This document shows, piece after piece, positions 11,169 to 13,220 of a stretch of DNA of 42,254 nt (position 1 is its first letter; each line of letters starts with the position of its first letter). The notes beneath the pieces were generated by a model, which had not been told where the DNA came from, searched no databases, and worked only from the letters and a program-made list of their open reading frames with translations. The DNA comes from Chloroflexota bacterium (lineage in GTDB: Bacteria > Chloroflexota > Dehalococcoidia > SZUA-161 > SpSt-899). The stretch lies in the NCBI GenBank assembly GCA_013203045.1, contig JABMQN010000009.1:1-42254 (forward strand), in the 5' to 3' direction. The translations under genes and the position numbers were made by a program.

Positions 11169-12482
11169 ATGACTGCAATGCTCCATAAGGCAATGGCCAG
11201 CAATACAACAAAGCGGTTTTATCCACTTGTTATTTTTGCGATGCTGCACATCATTATCTTCATGGTGATATTTCAGGGAGCATTTCCAGATAGTAGTGAA
11301 TATCCCAATTATGCAGAAGGGGATAGCCGTTCTCTCTACTTCCATTATGCTGATCGTGTTTTCGAAGGAGAGTTGCCCTATCAGGATTTTGATATCGAAT
11401 ATGCCCCGCTCTCACTGCCCCTTTTTCTCATACCACGAGTCTTTGCTGAAAGTGACATCGGTTACCATATAGCCTTCGCTGTAGAAATGCTTCTCTTTAA
11501 TCTCATCGGTATGTGGGCCCTCTGGGCATTGGCAAAACGATTGGGATATTCAGCGATAACTGTTTTATCGATCTATACTATCGGGCTACTATCGTTAGGG
11601 CCAACCATTATAGACCATTTCGACCTTGCTGCGGCCGTGCTGGTATTGTTAGCTATATGGGCTTTCATTTCAGGGAAAAACACTCTTGCATGGGTGTTTC
11701 TGGCTCTGGGAACGATGATCAAGATATTCCCGATTATAATAGTCCCAATCCTGGCGCTCTATTTGCTACGGCGTAATGACCTTCGAAATATTTTGAAAGG
11801 GGGACTGGCGTTCGCCGCAACGTTAATCATAGTAAGCATACCGTGTATGTGTATCAGCTTTGACGGATTCGTCGATTCTTTTACATATCACAGCGAACGT
11901 GGTTTACAGGTGGAAAGCACTTATGCTTCCATTTTATTACTGGGCCATAATTGGGGCATTTCATCTATTGAAACTGACTTGATAGCCGAAAGTGGATCAT
12001 GGGAAATAATCTCATCAACTGCCGATTTCATGGCAAGATATTCGCCGTTAATTGTGCTATTTTTGTTGGCATTAGTTTACGGTGTTTATGCTCGTAGAGA
12101 ATGGATGGGCAGGTCTCTTGATGAGAGAGAATTCCATTCCCGATTAATAACCTTCTCAATTTTGGCAATAATCGTTTTTATGCTCGCCAACAAGGTTTTT
12201 TCACCTCAGTACATCATTTGGCTATATCCTCTTATCCCGCTCATATCAGGTCGATGGCGTATCTTCTCGTGGGCTATTTATGCCACCATTGCTCTTATGA
12301 CGGTCTATATTTTTTCATATCACTATGACTATATCTTCTCTGATCACTATCTGGACCTTGTTTATGACCTTGACTCAGTGCCTATCTACGTTCTCGCACT
12401 TCGTAATTTATTGCTTTTCTTCATGGTGTTTACACTTCTAGATTTTAGATGGCCTGTCTTTAGGAGAAAGGAAATTACATAA
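11169..12482 (+). CDS. polytopic membrane glycosyltransferase, GT87 (DUF2029)-like
   Basis: A 437-residue integral membrane protein with about ten hydrophobic segments. After the first transmembrane helix comes a polar extracytoplasmic stretch GDSRSLYFHYADRVFEG...LPYQDFDIEYAPL, the arrangement seen in GT87/DUF2029 polyprenyl-phosphate-dependent mannosyltransferase-like proteins, where an acidic residue in that loop is catalytic. Donor and acceptor cannot be read from sequence. ATG 11169 is chosen because it begins shortly before the first hydrophobic segment; an upstream in-frame TTG at 11112 would add a run with no supporting signal. The stop overlaps the start of the Smr-domain gene by one base. 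Confidence 0.7.
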   Translation: MTAMLHKAMASNTTKRFYPLVIFAMLHIIIFMVIFQGAFPDSSEYPNYAEGDSRSLYFHYADRVFEGELPYQDFDIEYAPLSLPLFLIPRVFAESDIGYHIAFAVEMLLFNLIGMWALWALAKRLGYSAITVLSIYTIGLLSLGPTIIDHFDLAAAVLVLLAIWAFISGKNTLAWVFLALGTMIKIFPIIIVPILALYLLRRNDLRNILKGGLAFAATLIIVSIPCMCISFDGFVDSFTYHSERGLQVESTYASILLLGHNWGISSIETDLIAESGSWEIISSTADFMARYSPLIVLFLLALVYGVYARREWMGRSLDEREFHSRLITFSILAIIVFMLANKVFSPQYIIWLYPLIPLISGRWRIFSWAIYATIALMTVYIFSYHYDYIFSDHYLDLVYDLDSVPIYVLALRNLLLFFMVFTLLDFRWPVFRRKEIT

Positions 12483-12739
12483 TGTTTTCGTCTGAACCCG
12501 AAATAATGTTGCGGCGCCTGAGCGTCGAAGAGGCGTTAATCAAGCTGGACAAATCTCTCTATGATGTTTATGTATCAGGAGCGCATACAGTCAGAGTTGT
12601 TCACGGAAAGGGTACGGGCACACTGCGGTTGGTTGTAAGTCGGGAACTGTCACGGCACCCACTAGTAGAATCGTTCCGCCCAGCCGATCCCTGGGAGGGT
12701 GGGGCTGGAGTGACAGTGGCTCAATTGATAAGTAAGTGA
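12482..12739 (+). CDS. small Smr-domain protein
   Basis: An 85-residue protein consisting almost wholly of an Smr domain, the module found at the C-terminus of MutS2 and able to nick DNA or RNA. VEEALIKLDKSL, VRVVHGKGTGTLR and VESFRPADPWEGGAGVT match the core, including the HGKGTG loop. The usual N-terminal LDLHG/LDLRG motif is replaced by MLRRLS, so the first conserved acidic residue is missing and nuclease activity is uncertain. It overlaps the preceding gene by one base (TAATG), suggesting coupling. Its TGA is immediately next to the ancestral stop of the convergent ridA. Confidence 0.78.
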   Translation: MFSSEPEIMLRRLSVEEALIKLDKSLYDVYVSGAHTVRVVHGKGTGTLRLVVSRELSRHPLVESFRPADPWEGGAGVTVAQLISK

Positions 12740-13206
12740 TCAGATAGCTGCAATTGCTTCGATCTCGATCTTTGCAATGAACTACCCCGCGGCAGAGCAG
12801 CGGGGTATCAATTCGGAATTTTGTATTTATCGCGGCAAGCCGCGGGGAATTTACCCGGCGATCGATTAAACGGGAGTCTGCTTACCTCGACACAGCTTCT
12901 GGCCGGCCGATCCTTCTGGAAATGCTTTTTATAGACTTCGTTTAGCTTCGGGAAATCTCCCATGTCCGTTAAGAACGCCGTGGTCTTTATGACTCTATCC
13001 AGAGACGATCCGGCCTCTTCCAAAATAGTTTTTAAATTGACGAAAGTCTGCTCAACTTGTTGTTCGAAGTCATTTGAAATGAGGTTTCCTTTTTTCGGAT
13101 CGATCGGTACTTGTCCGGAAACGAACACCAGCGATCCATAAACCATCGCTGGTGAATATGGCGAATCAGTAGCTGACGTCTTTAGAATTATTGCTTTCTT
13201 CTCCAT
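12740..13206 (-). pseudogene. ridA: RidA family protein gene, C-terminus disrupted by an 89-bp insertion
   Basis: The frame from 13206 encodes a RidA/YjgF-type enamine/imine deaminase: VFVSGQVPIDPKKG, EQQVEQTFVNLKTILEEAGSSL and PARSCVEVSRLPF are all conserved. After RLPFN the sequence enters foreign hairpin DNA and the frame ends at 12808 with an unrelated tail (133 codons from the alternative ATG 13209). The missing C-terminus, encoding AKIEIEAIAAI and a TGA stop, is found intact at 12740-12775. Removing 12776-12864 restores a continuous 125-residue RidA of standard length. The altered product loses the last beta strand, which lies at the trimer interface, and is probably non-functional. GGAGG precedes the start. 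Confidence 0.85.
12776..12864. repeat. 89-bp palindromic element inserted in ridA
   Basis: Defined by the restored ridA frame on both sides. It contains a perfect TACCCCGC/GCGGGGTA stem (12783-12807), a perfect CGCGGC-AA-GCCGCG hairpin (12831-12844), GGG/CCC around AATTTA, and a longer-range inverted pair CCCCGCGGC (12785-12793) and GCCGCGGGG (12839-12847). It has no coding capacity. The first stem could also end transcripts of the two convergent genes, but no T run follows. Confidence 0.75.
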
Positions 13207-13220
13207 CATTGTCCTCCAAA

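Follow-up and report, generated by a model that had tools for sequence, protein, structure and literature searches.

PATEs (palindrome-associated transposable elements) consist of IS605-type ends fused to each other and lack a transposase (PMC3119063; PMC7290912). We compared our locus with the PATEs of Haloquadratum walsbyi (PMC3119063) and with one PATE-like sequence of Halanaerobium hydrogeniformans (PMC7290912). Elements of the IS200/IS605 family insert 3' of a fixed short target, which is kept in the left flank and is not duplicated; their hairpins are recognised by the transposase, and the intermediates are single-stranded circles (PMC5934647; PMC7290912). One of them, IS608 of Helicobacter pylori (PMC5934647), is autonomous, encodes the Y1 transposase TnpA and uses the target TTAC. 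REP/BIME sequences with their RAYT (PMC2817692) and Rickettsia palindromic elements (PMC10969869) are other forms of small dispersed palindromic DNA, and the latter also occur inside genes, where they are in frame (PMC10969869).

Here we describe an 89-bp element in the ridA gene of a Chloroflexota bacterium (draft assembly GCA_013203045.1). The window, that is, the whole stretch of DNA analysed, comprises positions 1 to 42,254 of contig JABMQN010000009.1. Like the PATEs above, the element is short, carries no transposase, has near-terminal palindromes resembling those of IS200/IS605, and shows neither terminal inverted repeats nor a target duplication. Unlike them, it is about 90 bp long, belongs to another sequence family and host, follows the target TTTAAT and lies inside a conserved metabolic gene. 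It resembles IS608 in its subterminal hairpins and in being inserted 3' of a short fixed target that remains in the left flank, whereas its ends differ and it is non-autonomous. It is small, dispersed and palindromic like REP/BIME and the Rickettsia elements, but it has no REP architecture, its full-length partner encodes an IS200 TnpA, and its insertion is out of frame. The kind of element is already known, and the locus is an unambiguous but unremarkable example of a gene broken by small mobile DNA. No description of the family defined by TTTAAT and GTAGTTCATT was found in the open papers searched, which does not prove its absence.

An 89-bp insertion out of frame in ridA

The open frame of the disrupted ridA (12808-13209, minus strand, 133 aa) encodes a normal Rid protein from its start at 13209 up to ...EVSRLPFN and ends with ...RLPFN-RSPGKFPAACRDKYKIPN. 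It is recognised as RidA by both Pfam and NCBIfam (PF01042, 2.1e-35; TIGR00004, 1.3e-36). The insert lies directly past the RLPFN codons (Table 1). When it is cut out, ridA encodes 126 aa from the first ATG or 125 from the second, with the tail ...RLPFNAKIEIEAIAAI-stop. The restored stop (12740-12742) adjoins that of the convergent Smr gene (12737-12739). The original prediction, made from the sequence of the window, had claimed that 89 bp cut ridA, that their removal restores a protein of 125 residues and that its stop abuts the Smr stop, and our analysis agrees on all three points. It had also claimed exact borders. The length of 89 bp is settled, as the restored frame dictates it, but the position of the border is uncertain by one base, as there is a T at both ends. 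The element shifts the reading frame (89 = 3 x 29 + 2) and brings a stop codon, so that RidA ends in 18 new residues in place of its last 11. All 18 are derived from the element, so that the earlier assignment of KYKIPN to it was right but too narrow. We also considered a role of the element as a terminator between the convergent genes; this is unsupported, since scans of 12600-13000 found no promoter or terminator.

Uninterrupted ridA genes were found in three genomes of the same family (G001, G003 and G007), with the C-terminus RLPFDMKVEIEAIAAI in G007 and G001 and RLPLGARVEIEAIAVI in G003. The joined ridA aligned with all three without a gap, in an empty-site comparison made at the protein level against other genera of the family. 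Since these relatives carry the predicted tail gap-free, the AKIEIEAIAAI remnant downstream of the element is the native C-terminus.

Table 1. Features at the disrupted ridA locus (positions in the window)
Feature	Position	Strand	Evidence
5' part of ridA, native codons 1-115 (MMEKK...RLPFN)	12865..13209	-	PF01042, TIGR00004
Target / left cleavage site TTTAAT, ridA codons F-N, 5' of the element	12865..12870	-	own-genome copies; gap-free alignment with relatives
89-bp non-autonomous IS200/IS605-type element (PATE/MITE)	12776..12864	-	genome copies; ends shared with 527-534 bp IS200 TnpA elements
18 element-derived codons, tail of disrupted RidA (RSPGKFPAACRDKYKIPN)	12811..12864	-	sequence
Left-end hairpin CGCGG-CTTG-CCGCG	12831..12844	-	covariation, 18 elements
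Stop codon of the disrupted frame, within the element	12808..12810	-	sequence
Right-end imperfect hairpin TACCCCGC...GCGGGGTA, then GTTCATT to the right tip	12783..12807	-	DNA fold; pattern match
Stranded native 3' end of ridA (AKIEIEAIAAI + TGA)	12740..12775	-	joined sequence matches relatives' tails gap-free
Convergent Smr-domain gene, stop adjoining native ridA stop	12482..12739	+	PF01713 2.3e-20

Consequences for RidA

Judging from its sequence, the disrupted RidA is probably inactive, as the terminal strand is removed, and loss of the whole terminal segment probably destabilises the protein. We also considered that the element-coded tail is tolerated or even useful and that RidA still functions, as in working proteins to which Rickettsia palindromic elements have added peptides. 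The reading frame runs on through 18 codons, and the insertion leaves intact the conserved core, which includes the substrate-binding arginine region (PARS..EVSRLP). The gene is also the only RidA match in the genome, with no second one at E<=0.001. We take the position of Glu120 to fall within the lost segment. The literature on this residue is mixed: in TdcF, Glu120 has a proposed role in substrate binding and in positioning of water, but alanine at the equivalent residue of Salmonella enterica RidA had little effect (PMC4433059), and this latter result also speaks for a functional protein. However, the entire AKIEIEAIAAI, conserved across all relatives aligned, is gone, and RSPGKFPAACRDKYKIPN has no similarity to it. 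An AlphaFold model of the disrupted RidA, predicted from the single sequence without an alignment, is too poor (pLDDT 39.7) to judge the fold or to decide the matter. We consider a working RidA with this tail rather unlikely and prefer its inactivation. The organism is thus flagged as likely to be without its one detected RidA. It is also a warning for annotation that the C-terminal tail of a conserved enzyme, such as RSPGKFPAACRDKYKIPN, can be transposon sequence.

Copies of the element and their target

In the organism's own genome (a 3.97-Mb draft in 277 contigs, 92.55% complete), the 89-mer has five further matches (E 2.2e-44 to 7.1e-40), which exclude chance. Four other complete copies are present, on contigs C100, C209, C111 (100%) and C136 (99%). 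Partial copies are found on C150 and C187, and one copy is split by another insertion sequence between C115 and C105. A sister family of 88 bp, about 90% identical over the inner part, occupies about nine loci, many of them at contig ends, where the repeat has broken the assembly. The outside flanks of the copies are mutually unrelated. Identical copies at unrelated sites bear out the suggestion of the original prediction that the element is or was mobile.

TTTAAT directly precedes all copies of the own genome in which the left end can be read, with ATTAAT in one. Since TTTAAT encodes F-N in ridA, it is the target in the host and not part of the element. A target duplication, which had been raised for the borders in ridA, is absent; no duplication was seen in the flanks of the own-genome copies, nothing is duplicated on the right, and excising exactly 89 bp leaves a ridA that aligns with its relatives gap-free. 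Instead, the fixed TTTAAT before the copies is a signature of IS200/IS605. A classical DDE-type MITE was rejected, as the tips (CGATCGCC vs GTTCATT) do not form terminal inverted repeats and no duplication is present.

Hairpin ends shared with IS200-type insertion sequences

The fold of the element and covariation of its left hairpin showed subterminal hairpins and no terminal inverted repeats. Among 18 distinct small elements, 100% of the cells of the left hairpin are paired and 16 cells have two-sided changes. The covariation score of 0.464 was reached by 0 of 500 shuffles, and slid controls scored at most 0.064. The right-end hairpin pattern occurs once in the window (expected number, 0.00); this end belonged to the search pattern, so that its conservation does not count as independent evidence. 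The single element of the window folds modestly better than its shuffles (z -1.56), and an Rfam scan of it gave nothing above the gathering score (best match, E 2.5).

In a scan of a collection of species genomes, the right-end pattern was found in at least 115 stretches, from Deltaproteobacteria/Desulfobacterota, Cyanobacteria, Bacteroidota, Nitrospirota and others. Within the own class it occurs in 2 of 393 genomes, the own one and G003. Among the matches listed, the left end, searched for as TTAAT-(5-16)-A[AT]TTCC, was also present upstream in 31 of 117 right-end matches; this pattern itself includes TTAAT, and the independent test of the target is that of the own-genome copies only. The elements so delimited, among the matches listed, are 81-115 bp (25), 527-534 bp (5) or 2007 bp (1) long. 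Those of 81-115 bp contain no gene, whereas in those of 527-534 bp the same pair of hairpin ends encloses tnpA. This gene extends almost to the right hairpin, and its product of about 147 aa is an IS200 TnpA (PF01797, 7.4e-39; NF033573, 1.4e-39). In Microcystis and Gloeocapsopsis, elements of 527-529 bp agree with the window element in the TTTAAT of the left flank, in the left hairpin and in the right end (GATACCCCG...CGGGGTAGTTCATT) and differ from it in carrying tnpA (147-aa TnpA). From length and genus alone, we infer that a 444-bp IS200/605 transposase gene of M. aeruginosa PCC 7806 (PMC11448079) belongs to the same family. As the class of about 530 bp has an IS200 TnpA between homologous ends, the small elements correspond to the two ends of an insertion sequence without tnpA. 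The shared ends tie tnpA-less elements of about 90 bp in many phyla to a parent of about 530 bp.

No matching TnpA was found in the own assembly, which contains only two distant RAYT-like Y1 frames, and TnpB (PF07282) gave a single sub-threshold match there. The nearest TnpA within the own class, in G286, is 57% identical. IS200-type genes of G003 belong to another group with different ends and thus give no support for a role as the partner. The matching tnpA may have been lost or may be unassembled: in a fragmented draft with several copies at contig ends, a multi-copy insertion sequence could be missing from the assembly.

We are highly confident that the insert in ridA is a non-autonomous IS200/IS605 element (PATE) that was put 3' of TTTAAT, presumably by a Y1 TnpA supplied in trans, with RidA probably inactivated; it fits every expectation for this family at the sequence level. 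The element would consist of the left and right ends of an IS200-type insertion sequence of about 530 bp minus tnpA. A Y1 (HUH) TnpA, encoded by a full-length relative that has since been lost, is missing from the assembly or existed in an ancestor, would have recognised both hairpins in single-stranded DNA, and the circularised element would have entered the coding strand of ridA without duplicating the target. The exchange of the final 11 residues for 18 element-coded ones would then probably have inactivated RidA. The locus provides a well-bounded example of a minimal IS200-type single-strand transposon, with an empty site at the protein level. Because excision in IS200/IS605 is scarless, the insertion could also be a reversible switch, in which an arriving TnpA excises the 89 bp and restores RidA exactly. 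More generally, the IS200-derived PATE architecture of about 90 bp common to many phyla may spread from one to another without its own transposase. We regard this reading as improbable.

RAYTs form a domesticated branch of the same superfamily, and a palindrome of the REP/BIME type moved by such an enzyme might be suspected from the RAYT-like frames (C115, C251) and from GGGGTAG within the right hairpin. However, neither element family has a match around the two RAYT loci (L031, L032), the two hairpins of the element differ from each other, its left target is fixed, and TnpA of the full-length relatives scores 135 bits with the IS200 model NF033573 (cut-off 55) against 31 bits with the RAYT model (cut-off 80), which makes this origin very improbable. 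That a repeat was joined into ridA by the assembly is scarcely credible in spite of the fragmented draft and the copies at contig ends, as this copy is internal to a contig of 42 kb and the two halves of one ridA flank it in perfect register.

Variant and possibly rearranged loci

Several loci were observed besides these. The 89-bp copy at L003 (G000:C209:11136-11230) has probably disrupted a lipoprotein-like gene close to the 3' end; without the copy, the flanks form an open frame of 364 codons, and no relative was found to confirm the tail of this gene. The split copy consists of L017 (G000:C115:16206-16257) and L018 (G000:C105:38204-38254), and the insertion sequence between them has the ends GGGGGGTATGCA.../...TGCATACCCCCC and an apparent 8-bp duplication, ATACAAAA. 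At L031 (1291-2559; G000:C115, around 4195), a bioD-like (dethiobiotin synthase) frame and, downstream of it, a RAYT-like Y1 transposase domain are read as one uninterrupted frame (422 aa). Elements of 132-154 bp in G003 (L035-L037, on C54, C21 and C2) have the same ends (TTTAATCACTTGGGG...GTAGTTCATT) and a different palindrome-rich interior. At L006 and L020 (G000:C150:37860-37947 and C212:3413-3460), an inverted copy of the adjacent sequence (...GGGGTATCAATTCGGCATCGATT...) comes after the right hairpin; this reflects either rearrangement via the palindrome or an error of assembly. Finally, L022 (G000:C86:13070-13108) is a lone near-perfect palindrome, AATGAACTACCCCGCCGCTTGCGGCGGGGTAGTTCATT, that resembles two right ends placed back to back.
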